NCBI RefSeq assembly: GCF_024979255.1
Contig: NZ_JANLCN010000006.1
Coordinates: 1-64,000 of the forward strand
Length of the DNA stretch: 64,000 nt
Reading direction: 5' to 3'
DNA from: Herbiconiux moechotypicola
Lineage (GTDB): Bacteria > Actinomycetota > Actinomycetes > Actinomycetales > Microbacteriaceae
The translations under genes and the position numbers were made by a program. Positions within the stretch are counted from its first letter, which is position 1, and each line of letters starts with the position of its first letter. The notes beneath the pieces are model-generated. The model was not told where the DNA came from and ran no database searches. It was given only the letters and a program-made list of their open reading frames with translations. Of the stretch, positions 405 to 63,132 are shown piece after piece.

Positions 405-1115
405 ATGTTTGCTGACGAGTATGCGTATCCTGTGGCCGTTTCGCAGGTGGGGGCGTCGGATTCGAGAGAAGCGCAGAGTGCCCGCGCGATCACCTGGCTG
501 CTGGAACAGCCAGGTGGCCCTGTGGTGGTTGTGACGCCGCAGAAGCAATTCGATTGCGACTCGCTTCGTCGCTTAGTCATGCTGCCGGGCACGCGTCATC
601 TCACCTGGAAGGGCTTGTCGGTCGGATCTTTCGCTGGCCGTCGCGTGATTCACGCGTGGCCGAGCCGGAAGCACTTGAATGAAATGTGGGGTGTACAGGC
701 TGATGCTGTCGTGGTGATCGAGTGGGGTTTTGAGGAGAGCGCCGAGTGGGTGGAGGATGCCAGACCGGTACGGCTGCTTCCGGGGCAGACCATCGCGCGT
801 GCAACTGCTCCGGTCGAGACTGCTCTTGTGGATTCGCTGCCGGCAGACGTGGAGCAGATCCTGGAAAGCATCGCCCGATGGGCGGCGGGCTATGACTCGG
901 GACTGAAATGGAACGAGGAGGACAAACTCAAGGCCGACATGATGAATTGCCCCGAGCGATGGGTGCCGGTGACAGTGGAGCAGGTGCGAACGAAGTGTCG
1001 GGAGCTCAAGATGCGTCCTGACGATGTCGACACGGTTGCAGGGTTCTTGGAGCGTCGAAAGCAAGGGCGCCGCTTCAACGTGCGTGGTAGCTATCGCGAC
1101 TTCCGGTTCTCCTGA
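405..1115 (+). CDS. Hypothetical protein, 236 aa
   Basis: I do not recognise a family. Residues 39-46 (VVVVTPQK) and 101-106 (AVVVIE) look like buried beta strands around a possible Rossmann-like core. The C-terminal 90 residues are charged and helical (WNEEDKLKADMM, then VTVEQVRTKCRELKM) and end in a basic tail. No signal peptide or membrane segment is visible. The start ATG follows GAGAGACGG at a usable distance. Third codon positions are clearly less GC-rich than in the genes from 1167 onward, so this gene and its divergent neighbour may belong to an acquired segment that begins off the left edge. Nothing in the context fixes a role. Confidence 0.6.
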   Translation: MFADEYAYPVAVSQVGASDSREAQSARAITWLLEQPGGPVVVVTPQKQFDCDSLRRLVMLPGTRHLTWKGLSVGSFAGRRVIHAWPSRKHLNEMWGVQADAVVVIEWGFEESAEWVEDARPVRLLPGQTIARATAPVETALVDSLPADVEQILESIARWAAGYDSGLKWNEEDKLKADMMNCPERWVPVTVEQVRTKCRELKMRPDDVDTVAGFLERRKQGRRFNVRGSYRDFRFS

Positions 1116-1166
1116 GAAACGGTAGATCTGTGGGCGTAACTATCCCCGCCATCACGACGATCCAGG

Positions 1167-1619
1167 TCATAGGGGGAGTGGGCGGTCGTCGACGATGCTC
1201 TTCATCACGAGGGTGGAGGTGAGGCGCTGTACGCCGGGTAGGGCGGAGAGTGAGTCGTCGTAGAGGCGCTGGAACGCGTCTAGGTCGCGGGTGATCACCC
1301 GCAGGAGATAGTCGGGGTCGCCGAACAGTCGCTGGGCGTGGATGACGTGCGGGATGTCGGTCACAGCGGCCTCGAAGTGGTTGAGCACCTCGCGGCCGCC
1401 CTCGCGCATCGTGACGAAGAGGAGGGCTTCGAAGCCCAGACCGAGGGCCTCGGCGTCGAGGTGGGCGCGGTACCCGGCGATGACGCCGGAGCGTTCGAGT
1501 TCGCGGAGTCGGCGGTGAGCGGGCGAGAGGCTGAGGTTGACACGATCCGCCAGTTCGGTGATGGTCAGGCGAGCATCCTGCTGCAGCTCAGTGAGGATCT
1601 TGCGGTCAATCGCGTCCAT
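1167..1619 (-). CDS. Lrp/AsnC family transcriptional regulator
   Basis: This 150-aa protein has the standard two-part Lrp layout. An N-terminal helix-turn-helix opens with MDAIDRKILTELQQDARLT and continues through the recognition helix near residues 30-50. A RAM ligand-sensing domain follows from about residue 65 to 145 (FVTMREGG, then FGDPDYLLRV). Family members bind DNA as octamers or dimers and respond to amino acids. It is divergent from the LysE-type exporter that starts at 1715, the classic arrangement of an Lrp-type activator (LysG/BkdR type) controlling an amino-acid exporter. That regulatory link is inferred from position. GGGAGA lies just upstream of the ATG. Confidence 0.93.
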   Translation of the reverse strand: MDAIDRKILTELQQDARLTITELADRVNLSLSPAHRRLRELERSGVIAGYRAHLDAEALGLGFEALLFVTMREGGREVLNHFEAAVTDIPHVIHAQRLFGDPDYLLRVITRDLDAFQRLYDDSLSALPGVQRLTSTLVMKSIVDDRPLPL

Positions 1620-1714
1620 GAGGTGGATTCTCCCTCAATGACCGCCCAGGCCGCAAAAATCAGCAAGCGTCTTCCGGGCCGGCCCGCCTAATCTCCTAGG
1701 CGGAGGTGGTGAGC

Positions 1715-2329
1715 GTGGCATTCGGGTCGGTCGTGGCGTTCTGGGGGATCTCGCTCCTCTTCGTCATCACTCCGGGCGCGGACTGGGCCTACGAGATCAC
1801 GGCGGGGCTGCGGAACCGGGTGCTTCCGGCGACGGCCGGCCTACTGCTCGGGCACGTCGTGGCGACGCTCGTCGTCGCGGCCGGGGTCGGGACGCTCGTC
1901 GCCGGCTTGCCCGTGGTGCTGACGGTGCTCACGGTGGCGGGGGCCCTCTACCTGGTGTGGTTGGGAGTGACGACGTTCGTTCGGCCCGCGGTGCCGCACG
2001 TGGCATCCGGACAGGTCGATGGGGCGTGGTGGCGGTGGATGCTGAAGGGGTTCGGGGTGAGCGGGCTGAACCCGAAGGTGTTCCTTCTGTTCCTCGCTCT
2101 GTTGCCGCAGTTCACCCAGTCGGGCGCGGACTGGCCGCTGGCGGCTCAGATCGTCGTGCTCGGTTTCGTGCATGTGGCGAGCTGCGCCGTCGTCTACACG
2201 GCCGTCGGGCTCGGGGCGCGCGCCGTGCTCGGCACGAGACCTGCCGCAGCTCGGATCGTGAGTCGCGTGTCGGGGGCGGCGATGGTGGCGATCGGTGTGT
2301 TCCTGATCGTCGAACGCCTGCTGCTGTGA
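1715..2329 (+). CDS. LysE/RhtB family amino-acid exporter
   Basis: Integral membrane exporter of about 204 aa. It opens with a hydrophobic helix carrying the family hallmark FVITPGADWAYEI (the TPGP-type motif of LysE/RhtB permeases), has about six transmembrane segments, and contains GLNPKVFLLFLALLPQF, the second conserved family block. These proteins expel amino acids or their analogues across the cytoplasmic membrane. Three in-frame GTG codons lie at 1706, 1709 and 1715; GGAGG at 1702-1706 is correctly spaced only for 1715, so that start is chosen. The divergent Lrp-type gene is the likely regulator. The substrate cannot be told from sequence; branched-chain amino acids are a guess based on the Lrp pairing. 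Confidence 0.88.
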   Translation: MAFGSVVAFWGISLLFVITPGADWAYEITAGLRNRVLPATAGLLLGHVVATLVVAAGVGTLVAGLPVVLTVLTVAGALYLVWLGVTTFVRPAVPHVASGQVDGAWWRWMLKGFGVSGLNPKVFLLFLALLPQFTQSGADWPLAAQIVVLGFVHVASCAVVYTAVGLGARAVLGTRPAAARIVSRVSGAAMVAIGVFLIVERLLL

Positions 2330-2380
2330 TCGTCCTATGGTGGAGCGCGGTCACGCGCCCGACAGCGAAGAGAGAGTTCC

Positions 2381-3232
2381 ATGAGTGAGCAACCCGCCCC
2401 CTACGGCGGCACCCCCGCAGTCGAAGCCGATGAGTCCCGTGAGCGGGTGCGGATCGGCCACCTGCGCGAGATGAAGCAGCGGGGCGAGAAGTGGGCGATG
2501 CTGACCGCCTACGACATGTACACCGCGGCCACCTTCGACCAGGCGGGCATCCCGGTGCTGCTGATCGGAGACTCCGCGTCGAACAACGTCTACGGCAACG
2601 AGACCTCCCTGCCGGTCACGGTCGACGAGCTGATCCCGCTCGTGCGCGCGGTCTCGCGGTCGGCCCGGCGCGCACTGATCCTCGCCGATCTGCCGTTCGG
2701 CTCGTATCAGACCTCAGCCGAGCAGGCTTTCACCACCGCGGCGCGGTTCATGAAGGAGGGCGGGGCGCACGCGGTGAAGCTCGAGGGCGGTCTCGAGATG
2801 CTGCCCCAGGTGGAGACGCTGACCCGGAGCGGCATCCCCGTCATGGCACACATCGGCTTCACCCCGCAGGCCGAGCACGCCCTCGGCGGGTACCGGGTGC
2901 AAGGCCGCGGCGAGGAGGCGCAGCGCCTTGTCGACACCGCGATCGCGTTCGAGCGGGCCGGGGCGTTCGGCATCCTGATCGAGATGGTGCCGGGGGAGGT
3001 CGCCGCCCGAATCACCGAAGCGGTCGGCATCCCCACGGTGGGGATCGGCGCCGGGAATGGCTGCGACGCTCAGGTGCTCGTGTGGCAGGACATGGCAGGC
3101 CTCCGCACCGGTAGGCTGCCCCGCTTCGTGAAGCAGTACGCCGACGTTCACGGGGTACTGCACCGAGCGGCCCTCGACTTCGCCGCCGACGTCGAAGCCG
3201 GCACTTTCCCCGGCCCCGAGCACACCTTCTGA
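2381..3232 (+). CDS. panB: 3-methyl-2-oxobutanoate hydroxymethyltransferase
   Basis: Catalyses the first committed step of pantothenate synthesis, transferring a hydroxymethyl group from methylene-tetrahydrofolate to 2-oxoisovalerate to give ketopantoate. The 283-aa protein is full length and has the family blocks [21 protein letters not shown] (metal ligand Asp64), [10 protein letters not shown] (Asp103), AVKLEGG (Glu135) and EMVPGEVA (Glu201), then the substrate-binding [14 protein letters not shown]. The first 20 or so residues are a variable extension typical of actinobacterial PanB. The start ATG follows AAGAGAGAG. No panC or panD is near, so it appears to be a single-gene unit behind the LysE exporter. 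Confidence 0.96.
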
Positions 3233-3364
3233 TGGCCAACAATGCTCGGCCCGTCGGGTTCACCTGGCTCGGGGTTATAGGGCAGAAGATGGCCGTAGGC
3301 AGTTCTCCCGGACGCGTGTCGCACCCACCGTTTACCCACAAGTGGAGCGATTGAGACATGATCG

Positions 3365-3468
3365 AGCAGGGTCGCCATGATCCAAGAAGCGCTAGATTCC
3401 GGGCTTCCTAGGCCTATTCCCACACCTCGCAGGCGAGGCATTCGGCTTCGAGTCCCAGTGGGGGTACG
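3365..3468 (+). other. Possible decayed tRNA-Leu-like sequence in the panB downstream spacer
   Basis: The 278-base spacer between panB and the next minus-strand gene has no convincing ORF. Inside it, AAGAAGCGCTAGATTCCGG resembles the D-arm to anticodon part of a leucine tRNA with a CCG anticodon. GGCTTCGAGTCCC followed by GGGGGTAC resembles its T-arm and 3' acceptor strand. The expected 5' acceptor partner is absent and the stems do not pair properly, so this is not a working tRNA. It could be a relic or coincidence. Confidence 0.17.
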
Positions 3469-3510
3469 CCGTCGGCGGCCGCTGGAGCCTGCCTGACGCG
3501 CGGCCGCCGC

Positions 3511-3840
3511 TCAGACGTCGAAGAAGTCGTCGAACGAATCGTCCAACGCGGTGGGGCGCACGACCCGGTCGGCGGTGTGCGCCTCCATCTGCGATCGGAG
3601 ACGGTCTGCGGCGACGCTGAAGTCCGGACCGTCGCCATCGAAGTCGATCGGAATCGAGAGCACGTCGTTTCCGACACCGATGACGAGCTCTGCGTCGCGC
3701 ACCTCGCCCTCGAGGAGGATCGGGATGGACACTGCCTCCGCCAGCCCTTTCCTCGCCAGACACGCGGTCAACTCCACGAGAGCCGACCCGACATCGTCCG
3801 TGGTCAGCACGGAGTCACCGGCGTACGTGATCTGCTTCAT
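3511..3840 (-). CDS. Hypothetical acidic protein, 109 aa
   Basis: The frame is open further upstream, but the natural start is the ATG at 3840 giving MKQITYAGDSVLTTDDV; the residues before it (MDRNRHRRRG...) look like noise. The protein is acidic and ends in a run of Asp and Phe (DDSFDDFFDV). It has alternating hydrophobic strands (AVSIPILLEG, AELVIGVGNDVLSIPIDF), suggesting a small alpha/beta fold. No known domain is recognised. It lies 14 bases downstream of the small membrane protein gene at 3855-4013 on the same strand and may be co-transcribed with it. Confidence 0.65.
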   Translation of the reverse strand: MKQITYAGDSVLTTDDVGSALVELTACLARKGLAEAVSIPILLEGEVRDAELVIGVGNDVLSIPIDFDGDGPDFSVAADRLRSQMEAHTADRVVRPTALDDSFDDFFDV

Positions 3841-3854
3841 GATCCACCCGGCAC

Positions 3855-4013
3855 TCAGACGTTGCGCCGGATGAAGCGGAGCAACGCCAGGATGATCGCC
3901 ACGACGACGATGACGATTCCGATCCACAGAAGGAACTTGGCGGCCTCGACGAAGAATCCGACGAACAGGAGCACGAGGCCGATGACGAACACGAGGACAG
4001 CTGCAGCGATCAT
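3855..4013 (-). CDS. Small membrane protein, 52 aa
   Basis: Starts MIAAAVLVFVIG and consists of two hydrophobic helices (about residues 2-21 and 28-47) joined by the short polar link EAAK, ending in RFIRRNV. This is a typical small actinobacterial membrane protein of unknown role. The longer open frame around it is not the gene. The ATG at 4013 is preceded by GGAGGAGGG, a strong ribosome binding site, which settles the start. The basic C-terminus suggests a cytoplasmic tail. Confidence 0.7.
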   Translation of the reverse strand: MIAAAVLVFVIGLVLLFVGFFVEAAKFLLWIGIVIVVVAIILALLRFIRRNV

Positions 4014-4100
4014 GACCCCACCCTCCTCCCGTGCACCGATCCGCGCTGGGGGGTTGGACAATCGGGCGAGGCGCGGTAGGGAGTGGATGAGGAGGTCATC

Positions 4101-4367
4101 ATGCCCAGACGAGGAACGAACAGCCTGAAAGACCCCGAACTCTACGAGCGCCTGCGAGACGAGGGCGACTCGAAGGAGAAGGCGGCACGCATCTCGAACG
4201 CCGCGGCCGCGCAGGGTCGCGAGTCCGTCGGCCGGCGAGGGGGAGAGTCGGGTTCGTACGACGACTGGACGGTCGCCGAGCTGCGGGCCCGGGCGAAGGA
4301 ACTCGGTCTGTCGGGATACTCGGGCAAGCGCAAGAGCGAGCTGATCTCGATGCTGCGGAATCACTGA
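4101..4367 (+). CDS. DUF7218/Rho N-terminal-like small protein, 88 aa
   Basis: The N-terminal half (GTNSLKDPELYERLRDEGDSKEKAARISNAAA) matches the short Ku/plasmid-stabilisation-associated family annotated as DUF7218. The C-terminal half (DDWTVAELRARAKELGLSGYSGKRKSELISMLRNH) is a SAP/Rho-N-type helix-extended-loop-helix expected to bind nucleic acid. The frame opens at 4083, but GAGGAGG at 4089-4095 is placed for the ATG at 4101. Basic proteins of this type are often stress-linked in actinobacteria; that is family knowledge, and the role here is inferred. Confidence 0.75.
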   Translation: MPRRGTNSLKDPELYERLRDEGDSKEKAARISNAAAAQGRESVGRRGGESGSYDDWTVAELRARAKELGLSGYSGKRKSELISMLRNH

Positions 4368-4381
4368 ACCGGCGACCGCCG

Positions 4382-6223
4382 TCACTCCAGGGCGACGGCG
4401 GCGTTGATGAGTGCGAGGTGGCTGAGGCCCTGCGGGAGGTTGCCGAAGAAGCGGTGGGTGCCGGGGTCGATCATTTCGGCGAACAGCCCCACGTCGTTGG
4501 CTTCTGCGACCAGCGCCGACATGCGGGCGGTGGCGTCGTCGCGTTCGCCGAGCGTGGCGAGTGCCTGGACGAGCCAGAACCCGCACGCCACGAAAGCGGC
4601 CTCCTCACGATCGACGCCGGTGTAGCGGTAGAGGTGCGGGCCGGTGCCGAGTTCGGAGCGGATGCGCTCCACTGTCCCGCGCATCCGCTCGGGCGGTCCG
4701 AACGGTGCGGAGGCGTGCAACAGGATCGATGCGTCGAGCGCCGTGGACCCCTTCGACATCACGTAGGCCTGCCGCTTCTCCGACCACCCGTGTTTCGCGA
4801 TCCAGTCGGCCAGCAGGCCGCGGTTCTTCTTCCACAGCGCCAGTGAGTCGGGATGCGGGCGCAGCTCACCGAGGTCGACGAGGCGCAGAGCGTCGTCGAG
4901 CGCTCGCCAGCAGCCGATCTTGCTGGAGACGTAGTGGCGCTTCTTCGGGAGCTCCCACATCCCGGAGTCCTTCTCCGGCCACCGTCGGCAGGCGCTGTTC
5001 GCGAACTCTTCGAGCAGATCGGCGGTGCTGCCGTCGAGGATGTTCCCCGCCTCGACGTAGAGCCGCATGATGCCGACGACGTCGGCGTAGACACCGAGCT
5101 GGAGTTGGCCGGCAGCCTGATTGCCGCTGTCGACCGGGCCGATCCCGTTCCACCCCTCTGCGGCGGTGCGACGCACCGGATCGGGGGTCGCGCCGTCGAG
5201 GGTGTAGAAGATGCCGAGCTCGCCGTCGTGCCGCTTGAGGGTCTTCAGCGCCCAGGACACGGCGGCGTGGGTCTCTTCGCGCAGCCCGAAGCGGGTGAGT
5301 GCGCCGACGGTGTAGGCGAGGTCGCGCACCCAGGCATAGCGGTAGTCGTAGTTCTTGGTACCCCGCTCGTTCTCGGGCAGCCCGGTGGTGGCGGCCGCCG
5401 CGATGGCGCCGGTCGGGGAGTGGATGAGGAGCTTGAGCGCGAGCGCGCTGCGCTGCACGGCCTCCGGCCAGGGGCCGTCGTACGAGAACTCGCGCGACCA
5501 TGTCGCCCAGTTCTCGATCGACCGGTCGACCCCCTGATCGACGATGCGGGGATCGGGCAGGTGGATGGGCTCGTCGTCGGTGCCGCAGAGCGCGATCAGG
5601 TGGCGGGAGCCGGGAGAGGTGCGGAAGGCGCCCTCGAAGCGGGCCGGGGCACCGCTCGCGCCGGGCAGGCCGCGCGAGGCGGCGGAGGCGGATGCGGGGT
5701 CGTGCGGATCGGTGCGGCCGTGCTCGAAGCCGACCAGCACGAGGTCGACCGTGCCGGCGCGCAGCAGCGGGCCGTGCACGGTATCGATCCGCTGCACCGG
5801 ATCGCCGGTGAACGCCGACCCGGGCTCGACGCTCCAGGTGAACTCGATCGAGCCGGCGACCCCGTCGATGCGGCGGGCGAGTTCGGCCCAGGGCAGGCGG
5901 CCGGCGACGCCGGTGACCAGCGCATCCGTCACCACCGCCTCCGCCCCGTCGAGGGTGCGGAAGGTGGTGCGCAGCACGTTCGTGCCCGGAACGTACTCGC
6001 GGCGCGACTCGAACTCGCCGACCGGTCGCAGCGCGAAGTGGCCGCCGTGTCGGGAGTCGATGAGCGCCGCGATCACCGGCGGGGTGTCGAGCGCGGGCAG
6101 CGGCAGCCAGTCGATCCGCCCGTCGGGCGCGATCGCGGCGACCGTGCGACCGTCGCCGATCACCGCGTAGTCGCGCAGCTCGGCGTAGCCGCCCGGGGTG
6201 CGGATGCGCTCAGATGGTCGCAA
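4382..6223 (-). CDS. Glycoside hydrolase family 15 protein (glucosidase or trehalase)
   Basis: A 613-aa (alpha/alpha)6-barrel enzyme. The N-terminal beta domain starts GGYAELRDYAVIGDGRTVAAIAPDGRIDWLPLP, the usual opening of bacterial GH15 proteins. The catalytic barrel carries NYDYRYAWVRDLAYTVGAL, PVDSGNQAAGQLQL and CGFWLVQALATLGERDDA. GH15 enzymes remove glucose from alpha-glucans; several actinobacterial members of this exact layout are trehalases, so trehalose is an equally likely substrate. No signal peptide is seen, so it should be cytoplasmic. Its start overlaps the end of the SDR gene upstream by 14 bases, implying translational coupling in a minus-strand carbohydrate operon (8834 to 4382). 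Confidence 0.92.
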   Translation of the reverse strand: MRPSERIRTPGGYAELRDYAVIGDGRTVAAIAPDGRIDWLPLPALDTPPVIAALIDSRHGGHFALRPVGEFESRREYVPGTNVLRTTFRTLDGAEAVVTDALVTGVAGRLPWAELARRIDGVAGSIEFTWSVEPGSAFTGDPVQRIDTVHGPLLRAGTVDLVLVGFEHGRTDPHDPASASAASRGLPGASGAPARFEGAFRTSPGSRHLIALCGTDDEPIHLPDPRIVDQGVDRSIENWATWSREFSYDGPWPEAVQRSALALKLLIHSPTGAIAAAATTGLPENERGTKNYDYRYAWVRDLAYTVGALTRFGLREETHAAVSWALKTLKRHDGELGIFYTLDGATPDPVRRTAAEGWNGIGPVDSGNQAAGQLQLGVYADVVGIMRLYVEAGNILDGSTADLLEEFANSACRRWPEKDSGMWELPKKRHYVSSKIGCWRALDDALRLVDLGELRPHPDSLALWKKNRGLLADWIAKHGWSEKRQAYVMSKGSTALDASILLHASAPFGPPERMRGTVERIRSELGTGPHLYRYTGVDREEAAFVACGFWLVQALATLGERDDATARMSALVAEANDVGLFAEMIDPGTHRFFGNLPQGLSHLALINAAVALE

Positions 6224-58850: not shown

Positions 58851-59924
58851 GTGGCTCTGACTATCGCGATCGTAGGACTCCCCAACGTGGGCAAGTCCAC
58901 CCTCTTCAACGCCCTCACGAAGAACCAGGTGCTGGCGGCGAACTACCCGTTCGCGACCATCGAGCCCAACGTCGGTGTGGTGAACCTGCCCGACCCACGG
59001 CTCGACAAGCTGGCCGAGATCTTCGGGAGCGAGCGCATCCTGCCCGCCCCGGTGTCGTTCGTCGACATCGCCGGCATCGTGCGTGGTGCGAGCGAAGGTG
59101 AAGGCCTGGGCAACAAGTTCCTCGCCAACATCCGTGAGGCGGATGCGATCGCGCAGGTCATCCGCGGCTTCACCGACTCCGACGTGGTGCACGTCGACGG
59201 CCGGGTCGACGCCGCGAGCGACATGGAGACCATCAACACCGAGCTGATCCTCGCCGACCTGCAGACCCTCGAGAAGGCCGAGGCCCGCTACGAGAAGGAG
59301 GTTCGGGGCAAGAAGCTCGAGCCGGTCGTGCTCGAGACCGCGAAAGCCGCCCGCGAGTTCCTCGACTCGGGCAAGCCCCTGTCGGTCTCGTCGATCGACC
59401 TCGAGCCCATCAAGGAGCTCGGCCTCCTCACCGCGAAGCCGTTCATCTACGTCTTCAACGTCGACGAGGAGATCCTCACCGACCAGGCCCGCAAAGACGC
59501 GCTCGCGGCCCTCGTCGCCCCGGCGCAGGCCGTCTTCCTCGACGCCAAGCTCGAATCCGAGCTCATCGACCTCGAGCCCGAAGACGCCGCCGAGTTGCTG
59601 GCCTCGACCGGCCAGGAGGAGAGCGGGCTCGACCAGCTCGCCCGCATCGGCTTCGACACCCTGGGACTGCAGACCTACCTCACGGCCGGCCCCAAGGAGT
59701 CCCGCGCCTGGACGATCGGCAAGGGCTGGACGGCACCGATGGCCGCCGGCGTCATCCACACCGACTTCCAGAAGGGCTTCATCAAGGCCGAGATCATCTC
59801 CTTCGACGATCTCGTCGAGACCGGTTCGATCACCGAGGCCCGCGCCAAAGGCAAGGCCCGCATCGAGGGCAAGGACTACGTCATGCACGACGGCGACGTC
59901 GTCGAGTTCCGCTTCAACAACTGA
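58851..59924 (+). CDS. ychF: Redox-regulated ATPase YchF
   Basis: 357 aa Obg-family P-loop ATPase that binds ribosomes and prefers ATP. G1 is GLPNVGKS at residues 9-16, G3 DIAGIVRGASEGEGLGN, then the coiled-coil insertion and a C-terminal TGS domain ending KDYVMHDGDVVEFRFNN. The start is a GTG; TAGGAT lies eight bases upstream. The final 24 bases or so are repeated at 62600-62623, so the 3' end of this gene appears to be the attachment site of an inserted segment. The insertion restores the coding end. Confidence 0.97.
   Translation: MALTIAIVGLPNVGKSTLFNALTKNQVLAANYPFATIEPNVGVVNLPDPRLDKLAEIFGSERILPAPVSFVDIAGIVRGASEGEGLGNKFLANIREADAIAQVIRGFTDSDVVHVDGRVDAASDMETINTELILADLQTLEKAEARYEKEVRGKKLEPVVLETAKAAREFLDSGKPLSVSSIDLEPIKELGLLTAKPFIYVFNVDEEILTDQARKDALAALVAPAQAVFLDAKLESELIDLEPEDAAELLASTGQEESGLDQLARIGFDTLGLQTYLTAGPKESRAWTIGKGWTAPMAAGVIHTDFQKGFIKAEIISFDDLVETGSITEARAKGKARIEGKDYVMHDGDVVEFRFNN
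59899..59922 (+). repeat. Left attachment-site-like direct repeat (3' end of ychF)
   Basis: TCGTCGAGTTCCGCTT, one variable base (C), then AACAACT. Matches 62600-62623 at 23 of 24 positions in the same orientation. Confidence 0.8.
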
Positions 59925-59945
59925 CCATTGTGTCTAGTCGATTGA

Positions 59946-60797
59946 CTAGCGTACGACTATTCCTGCCGAGAACCACTGCACGAGTGCTGAGGCCAACTGC
60001 ACGTGTCCCTGAGCTTCGACCACTGTCGGTGCAGCACCGCCATGCCTATCGGCCTGCGCGATGATAAGTGTTTCTAACATTCCGACTAGTACCGCTTTGT
60101 GGTCTGGGTGGCCGTCGTCTCGTGTTGGAAACGCAAGAGTCCACCCAGACTGATCCTTGATGGTCTGAGTAATCATGCCGAGGCGGACCTTTCGCGCGGT
60201 GGGACTCACAACGGGATGCGCCGCTGCCTCGACAGCTTTGATTGCCTCGGTCATGACGAGACTAGTGTTCGGTGTCAATGCATATGCTTCCGTCCATGCC
60301 TTCCCCAGATGTTGACCGGCGAGCGTGGGCGCGGATTGCCTGCTTGCCTCCGCGAGTTCGTCCACGCCCTCAGGAACTCGTCGCTGCAGCCGGTACACAC
60401 CGTCTCGAAGTGCGATGACAGCCGCGGAAGGAGCGTTATCGAAGTGCCACATCAACGACTTCACATTGCTTGGTGTATTGCCCGAGTCGTCCTCCTCGTA
60501 CGCAGACAGGAAGAAGTCGATCACGCGTGCCACGAATTGATCACCCGCCTGCGTGATCGTGCGTACCATGTCGTCCGCCTCTACATATCGATTCTCCAGT
60601 CGGAAATCGACCTGGAGGCCGCTCTGAAGCTCATGCACACGGCTCATATCGACGTAGGCATAGGCGCCTCTCGGGCGAAGCTCTCTGCGTATCCACGCCA
60701 GGACGGGGGGATAAAGGGTAGATGGGAGCAACTCGCGGATCAGCGAGCGCTCTTCGTACTCGTCGTCATCAGCATCCCAAGGTCGCCAAACACTCAT
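59946..60797 (-). CDS. Hypothetical protein, possible Abi/HEPN-like C-terminus, 283 aa
   Basis: Starts MSVWRPWDADDDEYEERSLI. The middle has LENRYVEADDMVRTITQAGDQFVARVIDFFL. The C-terminal third (QHLGKAWTEAYALTPNTSLVMTEAIKAVEAAAHPVVSP then LGMITQTIKDQSGW) has the helix, AIKAVEA, then LG pattern seen in abortive-infection C-terminal domains; this is a similarity judgement only. The GTG at 60827 opens the frame, but TATGCT placed six bases before the ATG at 60797 favours that start. Its stop lies in a CTAGTC-GATT-GACTAG hairpin (59934-59949) shared with the end of ychF. First gene inside the mini-island, divergent from the pair at 61039. Confidence 0.65.
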   Translation of the reverse strand: MSVWRPWDADDDEYEERSLIRELLPSTLYPPVLAWIRRELRPRGAYAYVDMSRVHELQSGLQVDFRLENRYVEADDMVRTITQAGDQFVARVIDFFLSAYEEDDSGNTPSNVKSLMWHFDNAPSAAVIALRDGVYRLQRRVPEGVDELAEASRQSAPTLAGQHLGKAWTEAYALTPNTSLVMTEAIKAVEAAAHPVVSPTARKVRLGMITQTIKDQSGWTLAFPTRDDGHPDHKAVLVGMLETLIIAQADRHGGAAPTVVEAQGHVQLASALVQWFSAGIVVR

Positions 60798-60803
60798 AGG
60801 GCG

Positions 60804-60809
60804 AGCATA
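60804..60809 (-). promoter_or_regulatory. Leaderless -10 element, gene at 59946-60797
   Basis: TATGCT on the minus strand, six bases, then the ATG at 60797. Confidence 0.45.
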
Positions 60810-61038
60810 GAAGGGCCCGTCTGACACTGGTGCGATTTGCGGCTGTGGTGTGCAGATGCTGCCAGGGTTGATTCCGCGGATCTACGCGATCCTCCCGACA
60901 CAGGCCCGGTACTGAACGGACCATACTGTCGCCCGCAGTGACGAACTATGCGAATGGGTCATGTCGGGTGGTGTGTTGAACACGCCTTCTCTGAGTCTGA
61001 TGAGAGAATCAACCATCCGAACGATGGAGGTTCGTCTG

Positions 61039-61644
61039 TTGGACGCAAATGAGGTCTTGTCGAAAGCATGGTCGGAAGTTCAAGCATCAGGCGTGCCTGA
61101 GAGCCTGTACGAGGTCGCGTTTCGTGAGGCCATCACCCTAGTTGTGGGCGCACGGCCAGTTTCGGTTCCTTCCGCCGTCCAAGGGCGAGCCACGGTGTCG
61201 TCCGACGCGCCAGACGAAGCCGCTGCTAACGGCGGCGAAATCGACACCGAGGCGTTGATAAGGACTTTCGCCGAGGAGTCCGGCGTCGACGTCGCTGAGC
61301 TTGTCGAGGTGTTTTACTTCGAGTCCGACGGGTCAGCTCACCTGAACGTGTCAGGCCGCAAGCTTGGCGAATCGACCGCCGCAAAGGCGAAAGCCGTCGC
61401 AACCGCTATCGCTGCGGCCTACCACTTCGCGGACGATGAGCCTACCGTTTCCGTTGAAGTCATCCGTGCGGAGTGCGTGCGGCTAAAATGCTTCGACAAG
61501 AAGAACTTCTTCACTCACATGGGAGCGGCCCCGGGCACAGTTCTGTCGGGCTCGGGCAGTAGCCGAGTGCTCAGAATCAAGTCCAATGAGATAAAGGCGG
61601 CGCTTCAAGGTGTCGTGACCGTGGCGCGCGGCACGAAGGAGTAG
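61039..61644 (+). CDS. Hypothetical protein, first gene of island pair, 201 aa
   Basis: No family recognised. The frame is open from 60961, but GGAGG at 61026-61030 is spaced eight bases before a TTG at 61039 (MDANEVLSKAWSEVQASGVPESLYEVAFREAI), which reads like a true N-terminus. The first 40 residues are helical, then an acidic Ala-rich linker. A C-terminal alpha/beta part (ELVEVFYFESDGSAHLNVSGRKLGESTAAKAKAVATAIAAAYHF) ends in a possible winged-helix segment with SSRVLRIKSNEIKAAL. Six bases separate it from the next gene, so the two are surely co-translated. It may be the partner (antitoxin, adaptor or effector) of the HEPN-like protein. Confidence 0.65.
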   Translation: MDANEVLSKAWSEVQASGVPESLYEVAFREAITLVVGARPVSVPSAVQGRATVSSDAPDEAAANGGEIDTEALIRTFAEESGVDVAELVEVFYFESDGSAHLNVSGRKLGESTAAKAKAVATAIAAAYHFADDEPTVSVEVIRAECVRLKCFDKKNFFTHMGAAPGTVLSGSGSSRVLRIKSNEIKAALQGVVTVARGTKE

Positions 61645-61650
61645 GCCAGC

Positions 61651-62433
61651 TTGGCGCAGCTTCTTGACGTTACAGCGCTCCGGCAAGAGTTCGTCAACGC
61701 AGGAGTGCCCGAGGAACTCGCTGGTGAAGCTCTAGGTGCCTTTGTCGGCGCGAAGCGTCGCTTCCATCTCGGCGACTTTCGACCCAACGCGGTGGAAGGA
61801 GGCCGATTCTCGGAGGCAGTGCTTCGAATTCTTGAGTGGCAGACTACTGGCACCTACACGCCTCTTTCCGACCCGAAGTTCAAGGCCGACGCCGTCATTA
61901 CAAGACTTGGCCAACTCTCAGCGGGATCGCATCCAGAAAGTGTGAGGCTTCACCTGCCGCGTGCAGTGCGTGTGGTCTACGACATTCGGAACAAGCGAAA
62001 CGCCGCACACTTGAGCGATGGTATCGACCCGAGCATGCAAGACGCGTCGATTGTGGTCGCGACGCTCGACTGGATCCTGGCGGAACTCGTCAGGCTGAAC
62101 CATACCGTCTCTGCGACTGAGGCTCAGCGCGTCATCGAGGCGTTGGTCCGTCGCGAAGTTCCGATGATTCAGGAGTTCAACGGCAGACCGAGGATCCTCA
62201 AGACCCTCAGCCATGCTGATCACCTCCTGGTGCTGTTGTACTGGTGGGGCGATCGACCGATAGCGCGGTCCATTCTGAACTCCTGGCTCCCCGCGAACAT
62301 GCGGAAGAATTCCACCCGGGTATTGCGCACGCTTCATGACGGATACTTGATCACTTTGTCGGATGACGAGGCACACATCACCCAACTTGGCCTACGGTCT
62401 GTGGAAGAACGTCAACTAATCGGTTCGCTTTAG
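61651..62433 (+). CDS. HEPN-like plus winged-helix protein, second gene of island pair, 260 aa
   Basis: Residues 105-150 read VRVVYDIRNKRNAAHLSDGIDPSMQDASIVVATLDWILAEL: a helix pair around RNKRNAAH (113-120), which fits the R-x(4-6)-H motif of HEPN ribonucleases. Residues 188-256 (HADHLLVLLYWWG through TRVLRTLHDGYLITLSDDEAHITQLG) form a likely winged helix. The N-terminal 70 residues are helical (FVNAGVPEELAGEALGAFVGAKRRF). The start is a TTG at 61651 behind AAGGAG. Nuclease activity is inferred from one motif and is not certain; the family is uncharacterised as far as I know. Confidence 0.65.
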   Translation: MAQLLDVTALRQEFVNAGVPEELAGEALGAFVGAKRRFHLGDFRPNAVEGGRFSEAVLRILEWQTTGTYTPLSDPKFKADAVITRLGQLSAGSHPESVRLHLPRAVRVVYDIRNKRNAAHLSDGIDPSMQDASIVVATLDWILAELVRLNHTVSATEAQRVIEALVRREVPMIQEFNGRPRILKTLSHADHLLVLLYWWGDRPIARSILNSWLPANMRKNSTRVLRTLHDGYLITLSDDEAHITQLGLRSVEERQLIGSL

Positions 62434-62599
62434 GCGAAAATCGCTCGATCATACTGACATTGCTCGGGACCTTGGCGTGTGACGTCTTCGCCAGCCCAAA
62501 TCCGGAACCGCCCCAGTTCGTGCCAATTCGACACGCGATATATTTCTCTGTCCTGCTGGAGAAGCACGCGTCGGTCGCTGGACAGTCTGTAAATTAGCT
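62434..62599. other. Right-end spacer of the mini-island
   Basis: 166 AT-richer bases between the HEPN-like gene and the right repeat. A 63-codon minus-strand frame crosses it but has no supported start and overlaps the repeat, so I do not call it a gene. No integrase remnant is visible. Confidence 0.4.
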
Positions 62600-62623
62600 T
62601 CGTCGAGTTCCGCTTGAACAACT
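62600..62623 (+). repeat. Right attachment-site-like direct repeat
   Basis: Same 24-base sequence as 59899-59922 with G in place of C at position 17. Followed by AGACACAAAG, which was probably the original chromosomal sequence after ychF. Confidence 0.8.
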
Positions 62624-62673
62624 AGACACAAAGCCGACTGTACGTGGCGCACCGAGAACCAGAAGGACACCCG

Positions 62674-63132
62674 ATGACCACGACCACCACCGCCCTCCGC
62701 CGCACCGGAACGCTCGCACTCGCCGCCGGCTCGCTGCTCGTGGCCGGGGGAGCGGGCGCCTGGGTGGCGGTCACGCAGCAGCTCCGCGCCGAGAAAATCA
62801 CGGTGCCGGGCAACGCCCCCGCGCTGAAGGGCAAACTGGTGCAGGGCCCGGCCACGGCCTATGTGGAGGCCCTCGTCATCAAGGGCAACGCCGAGCGCGG
62901 TGCCGGCGGCCGCACCTTCGCCGACATCAGTGAGGCCCTCCGTCACGTGGAGCCGGGCTCCGACGAGGAGCGCGCCCTGCGCGGCCAGAGCATGTCGCTC
63001 TCGACCGCCGCGTCGCTGCGCACCTCGCTCATGACCTCGGTACTCGCCTTCGGCGTCAGCGCCCTCGTCACGGGCCTCGGCGCCCTCTTCGTCGTCACCG
63101 GGGCCCAGCTCCGCCGAGTCGACCCGAAGTAG
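62674..63132 (+). CDS. Two-helix membrane protein (often misannotated LigA-like)
   Basis: 152 aa. N-terminal membrane helix (LALAAGSLLVAGGAGAWVAV), then an extracytoplasmic stretch with AEKITVPGNAPALKGKLVQGPATAYVEALVIKGNA, and a C-terminal helix (SVLAFGVSALVTGLGALFVVTGAQL). This arrangement is a widespread actinobacterial family, frequently mislabelled aromatic ring-opening dioxygenase LigA; no dioxygenase residues are present. AAGGAC precedes the ATG at 62674. First chromosomal gene to the right of the mini-island. Confidence 0.82.
   Translation: MTTTTTALRRTGTLALAAGSLLVAGGAGAWVAVTQQLRAEKITVPGNAPALKGKLVQGPATAYVEALVIKGNAERGAGGRTFADISEALRHVEPGSDEERALRGQSMSLSTAASLRTSLMTSVLAFGVSALVTGLGALFVVTGAQLRRVDPK

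Follow-up and report, generated by a model that had tools for sequence, protein, structure and literature searches.

A likely recombinase-less cargo cassette at the 3' end of ychF in Herbiconiux moechotypicola and a candidate cassette system in Microbacteriaceae

In Herbiconiux moechotypicola, the GTPase gene ychF is followed by a small island bounded by two copies of the end of the gene. The window analyzed here, a 64,000-nucleotide stretch of contig NZ_JANLCN010000006.1, contains both. The island is likely a cargo cassette that lacks a recombinase of its own and that site-specific recombination placed at the ychF 3' end, which serves as a docking site family-wide. We also lean toward a broader proposal, namely that Microbacteriaceae, and probably further families of the order, have a serine-recombinase gene-cassette system anchored at the 3' end of ychF. 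Its short recombinase-less cassettes, many with defense genes, would carry the attP arm of phage-type large serine recombinases (LSRs), receive LSRs in trans from phages or larger elements, and form ordered arrays with the newest member beside ychF, an integron-like function without an integron.

Mobilization in trans would best account for the cassettes. A circular cassette would recombine with the ychF tail by means of a recombinase supplied in trans. The cassette end imitates the tail, and insertion would therefore restore both the frame and the docking site, so that arrays would be expected to grow at the ychF side.

Results

The Island behind ychF

The ychF gene (58851..59924, plus strand) encodes an intact protein of 357 amino acids (open reading frame, ORF; Pfam YchF-GTPase_C, E 3.8e-37), and its 3' end is the predicted docking site. 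As described in the initial annotation, it ends in a 24-base direct repeat with one mismatch. The left copy (putative attL, 59899-59922, plus strand) lies within the end of ychF, stops on the first base of the stop codon (59922-59924) and preserves the frame (FNN, stop). The right copy (putative attR, 62600-62623, plus strand) lies 2701 bases downstream and is identical at 23 of 24 positions. Wide occurrence of the repeat, which would have spoken against an insertion, was not found: in the whole genome (4,277,819 bases, up to three mismatches) it is present at these two places only, and its backwards control has no match. We estimate the probability of a 23/24 match arising by chance within 2.7 kb to be on the order of 1e-9. 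A chance repeat is rejected, as the pair is unique to two genome positions and ychF tails recur in the family above control 20-mers (see below).

The inserted mini-island (59925..62599) has a GC content of 58.3% as a whole, with windows of 57-60% inside compared to 65-76% outside. Searches of four family libraries, Pfam, PADLOC, PHROGs, and NCBIfam, found no match above cut-off in it to recombinases, transposases, or phage families, and no integrase gene or remnant. The same four libraries gave nothing above cut-off or significance for its genes g1, g2, and g3, so that the early description of an AT-richer interval with unfamiliar genes and no recombinase is upheld. The idea of a satellite-like element is not, as no phage structural, packaging, or replication genes were detected in the window (the best PHROGs match, of unknown function, has E 0.041).

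Comparison with same-genus genomes supports an insertion. Two of them (G002 and G013) have empty sites, where the homolog of the chromosomal gene at 62674 (62674..63132, plus strand) directly follows ychF, starting with ATG 41 and 39 bases past the stop. The predicted gene order of empty sites was therefore found, but not the predicted junction, as the 10-mer AGACACAAAG is not conserved in these genomes. Two further relatives carry other inserts before the same gene. In G005, ychF and the homolog are separated by 4.7 kb of other DNA that holds two copies of the tail, the second immediately preceding the homolog, and in G003 a 1.9 kb insert ends in a degenerate tail remnant TTCAACAACTAG in front of it. 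Other genes without tail copies follow ychF in G006, G014, and G004. Thus both empty sites and different cargo exist among relatives, and together with the duplicated target they agree with the original suggestion of a cargo slot at the 3' end of ychF. The survey below includes 13 loci of the same genus in addition to the window, and of these G005 alone has a site above the 20-bit line.

Tail-Derived Sites in the Family

The survey covered up to 20 kb downstream of ychF in 120 genomes (20 + 100) and 4.1 kb of the window, 121 loci in total, eight of them shorter than 17 kb. The genomes were drawn from ychF searches, positive in 60/60 and 193/199 genomes, and form a non-random sample of those with listed ychF coordinates and usable contigs. 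At a threshold of at least 16/20, 20-mers of a locus's own ychF tail recur in 27 loci, while the reversed tail recurs in none, the reverse complement in five, and one shifted 20-mer in ten. At 18/20 or better, the counts are 17 loci for the own tail and two for each of three control 20-mers.

Hits in these loci served as the seed for a 31-base weight matrix, and the score of each locus was computed without its own hits. A tail-derived site of at least 20 bits was found downstream of ychF in 34 of the 121 loci (reversed sequence, 0; reverse complement, 1), in line with the early conjecture that ychF is an insertion hotspot. The right-hand tail copy of the window, in direct orientation, reaches 35.6 bits. 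These 34 loci include G092, whose site (276 bases, 22 bits) may be due to chance, and the sites of G105, G178, and G217 resemble longer copies of ychF, unlike sites of the cassette type. Two to five tandem sites are present in 16 loci; the window itself holds one cassette. When 12 cassette-bearing genomes were searched whole (up to three mismatches), all 27 matches fell at the ychF locus, seven of them being native tails, and the backwards control gave no match.

In other families of the order, such sites were found in two of ten loci of 5 kb, G047 and G042, so the hotspot may extend beyond Microbacteriaceae; the end of ychF in G042 was not recognized by the automated scan. The ychF-tail-like sites themselves are on L252 (G047) and L249 (G042). 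In several loci the end of the YchF protein is exchanged, to EFRHS in G071, G113, G105, and G076 and to EFRFQTDKSK in G005. Genome G016 has, besides an intact ychF, additional ychF fragments at or near contig starts (C1:1-789, C2:979-2015).

Size, Composition, and Growth of the Cassettes

By simple ORF calling, the sites divide the islands into 62 stretches with a median length of 1512 bp (10th-90th percentile, 462-4520). One to three ORFs of at least 60 amino acids are present in 41 of the stretches, more in 19, and none in two; the array of G122 extends over 17.7 kb. Of the 34 islands, 32 were long enough for a GC comparison and two were left out; 27 of the 32 have a lower GC content than the DNA downstream, and the mean difference over all 32 is 4.4 points. 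The right flanks common to some sites, on L143 and L185, contain a hairpin-like sequence GGCCCCGTCTGCTTCGGCAGGCGGGGC, which may be a terminator located at the start of the cassette.

The loci were scanned with three recombinase profiles built from contigs of this analysis (LSR and tyrosine types). With these profiles, an LSR inside the island was found in only G071 and G113 of the 34 site-bearing loci, and G017 has a weak LSR match 16 kb away. A tyrosine integrase gene stands right after ychF in G168, which has no site above 20 bits.

Stretches common to several genomes start at or near sites. For instance, the sole cassette of G232 matches G119 (93% over 1102 bp) 23 bases past the second site of G119, where two further cassettes lie on the ychF side of the matching stretch. 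In G106 and G228, the first ~610 bases of the first cassette match the DNA that immediately follows the G184 site (86% and 84%), and DNA following the G023 site is similar as well (71-74%). Finally, G213 and G065 share the last cassette (85%, ending at most two bases from the ends of the sites), and the cassettes that precede it differ in number. These three comparisons, few as they are, all fit the addition of cassettes on the side of ychF. Beyond the cassettes, the downstream DNA is similar as well in G213/G065 (77%) and G232/G119 (87%), and therefore the old cassette may have been inherited vertically in both pairs.

To find cargo families, we scanned 74 hand-picked cassette proteins (72 of 153 ORFs of at least 90 amino acids and two from G028) with no control set. 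The families listed include the defense-type proteins AbiD/Abi_2 (two members), AbiLi, TIR, and a type IV Mrr enzyme, as well as type I restriction subunits with PrrC, AAA_21, HipA, and helix-turn-helix proteins. Phage structural families are absent from the 25 commonest ones listed. A separate observation concerns L127 (G201), in which five large ORFs in the 8.4 kb after ychF make up a single cassette. It is probably the source of the matches to type I restriction proteins and PrrC.

Recombinases and the LSR-Type Arm

A scan of IMG/VR for the ychF tail yielded 16 stretches. An LSR gene adjoins the tail in five of them (L066, L070, L071, L074, and L076), the last of which also holds a tyrosine integrase. 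A tyrosine integrase of 250-258 amino acids stands beside the tail in L065 and L067, which represent the same element, and in L079, and a longer one follows ychF in L073. Three stretches (L072, L075, and L078) contain ychF or its end, and four (L068, L069, L077, and L080) are apparently unrelated coding matches.

Relatives of the L071 LSR are present in 175 of 398 family genomes, and a tail copy was found by the LSR start in seven of 30 fetched loci (G126, G177, G351, G071, G293, G113, and G361). The distance between ORF start and site is 10-45 bp in 11 of 12 LSR loci, the exception being L074, whose called ORF overruns the site. The LSR elements at ychF measure 7.7 kb in G113, 12.8 kb in G071, and about 40 kb in G126. 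Eight ORFs of the G126 element were compared with PHROGs, which identified an HNH endonuclease and an integrase among them.

On the left side of the site core, the cassettes have a conserved sequence (about c..a.gTT..TCgG...CG.AACGTGG), and the LSR loci look similar there. We built an arm matrix from the 12 LSR flanks only, all of which pass when themselves left out, and applied it to 56 cassette sites, a set from which two LSR elements were removed and in which the window was kept. With this matrix, 38 of the 56 sites score above the 99th percentile of random positions, and an LSR-type arm is thus present at the majority of the cassette sites. The viral contig L222 has the same arm at its site, without a ychF tail behind it and with LSR ORFs beside or over the site.

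Related LSRs (40-43% identity) are encoded by the Microbacterium phages SuMoo, UtzChips, and Gretchen. They were considered as helpers and rejected, as no 9/11 match to GTGGAGTTCCG occurs in ~300 bases upstream of their LSR genes.

Cargo of the Window

The first cargo gene, g1 (59946..60827, minus strand), encodes a protein of 293 amino acids of an unknown family with a patchy distribution. Homologs were found in 16 of 299 family genomes (counting its own) and in no viral contigs. One of them lies in a ychF cassette of G179 (37.5% identity over 168 amino acids to L195 498-1433).

The other two genes, g2 (60961..61644, plus strand, 227 amino acids) and g3 (61651..62433, plus strand, 260 amino acids), appear to be partners. 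Relatives of g3 were identified in six of 398 family genomes, own included, and elsewhere in Leucobacter, Pseudarthrobacter, Gordonia, two Bradyrhizobium, and a planctomycete metagenome-assembled genome. It is directly preceded by g2 in Leucobacter, Pseudarthrobacter, Gordonia, and G069. This order is seen in L033/L040 (cut by a contig end), L034, L036, and L041, and three g2 sequences were aligned. No ychF-type sites of at least 16 bits were found in 14 loci around other g3 homologs.

The HEPN motif has the form R-x4-6-H. In g3 (RNKRNAAH), R113 and H120, with six residues between them, are invariant in all six aligned sequences. Its AlphaFold model (pLDDT 79.9) is a helical bundle with a C-terminal winged helix, and the best Foldseek matches in PDB are HEPN domains, with probability 1.00 and TMt 0.64 but a weak E of 0.17. 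We suggest that g2 and g3 form an RNase-type abortive-infection pair, and that the cargo of the window is probably an anti-phage module comprising g3, an HEPN-type RNase with a winged helix, its partner g2, and the separate gene g1.

In Pseudarthrobacter sp. Fe7 (L036:7143-8941), the g2-g3 pair, with g3 split over two frames, lies between 19/20 direct repeats TACATCGAYCCGCCGCTGTG, 1779 apart. The repeat copies the start of the next gene, which we take to be DUF4031 and whose protein has YIDPPLWPAHG near its start. No recombinase was recognized by eye among the ORFs of this stretch, for which no family search was made. It is a second mini-island at a different site, possibly another place where recombinase-less cassettes dock.

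Discussion

Evidence against the Cassette Interpretation

Several observations weigh against the interpretation of the island and its relatives as LSR-mobilized defense cassettes. The LSR-arm matrix leaves 18 of the 56 cassette sites short of the 99% line, and when all 30 bases are used, it is also passed by 18 of the 121 native ychF sequences. The latter pass because the last seven bases of the arm resemble ychF; with bases -30 to -8 alone, the line is passed by 31 of the 56 cassette sites, by 11 of the 12 LSR flanks, and by none of the 121 native sequences. The arm of the window scores -8.9 (distal part, -9.5), within the null, and both sites of G005 likewise miss the LSR arm. The right-end arm of the window occurs in one of 397 other family genomes, with three mismatches, and its left-end arm in none of 19 other genomes (up to three mismatches); against other loci, the two arms give chance-level short matches only. 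No LSR was detected in the genome of H. moechotypicola, including any genome-wide match to PF07508. Non-defense cargo is also found in the cassettes, namely a permease, an epimerase, a cell-wall binding protein, and IstB of an insertion sequence. For the window cargo, no HEPN match of g3 attains E 0.001, and the single-sequence model of g1 has a pLDDT of 36.

The lack of a match for the window's arm leaves room for a tyrosine recombinase, the agent expected in the initial annotation, to have placed the island, its gene being lost or never present. Tyrosine integrases near the ychF tail in L065, L067, L079, and L073 and beside ychF in G168 are consistent with this, and a near-perfect repeat of 24 bases is long for a serine-recombinase core. 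For the cassettes as a group, the LSR arm at 38 of 56 sites leaves a tyrosine recombinase unsupported as the expected agent. As for the island, the ychF sequence copied in L065, L067, and L079 extends further upstream, unlike in the window, and the island holds no integrase remnant, which makes placement by a tyrosine recombinase rather unlikely.

Decay of prophages or islands, in which full recombinase elements at ychF lost all but the att sites and one or two cargo genes, is unlikely. Such elements do exist, as seen from the 7.7 kb to about 40 kb LSR elements of G113, G071, and G126 and from viral contigs having both an LSR and the ychF tail, and some arrays, like the 17.7 kb one of G122, are large. 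However, 16 loci have two to five tandem sites with mostly short units, the stretches shared between genomes start at or near sites, and phage structural families are lacking among the 25 commonest families of the 74 cassette proteins and in the window. Finally, duplication of the ychF tail through homologous or illegitimate recombination, with no site-specific enzyme involved, to which the longer ychF copies of G105, G178, and G217 might point, is very improbable given that the same site is used in many genera and nowhere else in the 12 genomes searched, and that the LSR arm is found in 38 of 56 cases.

Relation to Known Systems

Staphylococcal cassette chromosome (SCC) islands include recombinase-less copies in tandem. 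The ychF cassettes resemble a serine-recombinase counterpart of such elements or of the integrase-less integron arrays. In SCC and the Enterococcus cassette chromosome (ECC), LSRs target the 3' end of the conserved gene rlmH, and the likeness consists in an LSR at the 3' end of a conserved gene, direct repeats, and variable cargo (PMC6222049). The target differs, being ychF here and rlmH there, and so does the size, with ychF units mostly of 0.5-4.5 kb (10th-90th percentile) versus 21 kb and more there (PMC6222049). Further, the same-arm LSRs at ychF include ones from predicted viral contigs. The island is not an SCC member, because its site is ychF and no ccr-type recombinase was found (no ccr in the window and no PF07508 match in the genome).

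Clusters of attC sites lacking integron-integrases (CALIN) are tandem gene cassettes described as mobilized in trans (PMC11389934). Tandem cassettes without an integrase are also seen in the 16 surveyed ychF loci with two or more sites, the window having a single cassette, and growth at one end is suggested for the ychF arrays. Unlike in CALIN, the ychF sites are copies of a gene end with an LSR-type arm, and the anchor is a protein-coding gene. Actinophages with serine integrases likewise have the LSR gene beside attP (within 45 bp in 11 of 12 ychF loci), whereas the three isolated Microbacterium phages with related LSRs have no ychF-like site upstream of the gene. A prophage of the unrelated pneumococcus also uses the ychF neighborhood, but its 14-bp site lies in the promoter region of the gene instead of at its 3' end (PMC6375853). 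In the portion available to us, the main text of a survey of LSR target sites does not contain 'ychF' or 'DUF933' (PMC10083194), and no paper on ychF 3'-end cassettes was among the matches listed in the open-licence PMC literature.

If the proposed system is real, bacteria can stock single defense genes in ordered arrays by a non-integron chemistry, using the integrases of phages or larger elements, and new defense systems could be read cassette by cassette just downstream of ychF. It would also point to LSRs with natural multi-insertion sites, useful as genetic tools.

Other Features of the Window

No tRNA was found in the window, a search of Rfam was likewise empty, and a promoter and terminator scan gave no signal beyond shuffles. 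A doubtful ORF of 63 amino acids (62430..62621, minus strand), taken from the ORF list and matching no family above cut-off, overlaps the right repeat copy. The ends of the island share an 11-base inverted match, with TTGTGTCTAGT after the left copy (59922-59949) and ACTAGACACAA across the end of the right copy (62619-62630), and an imperfect palindrome, CTAGTCGATTGACTAG, is present at the left end.

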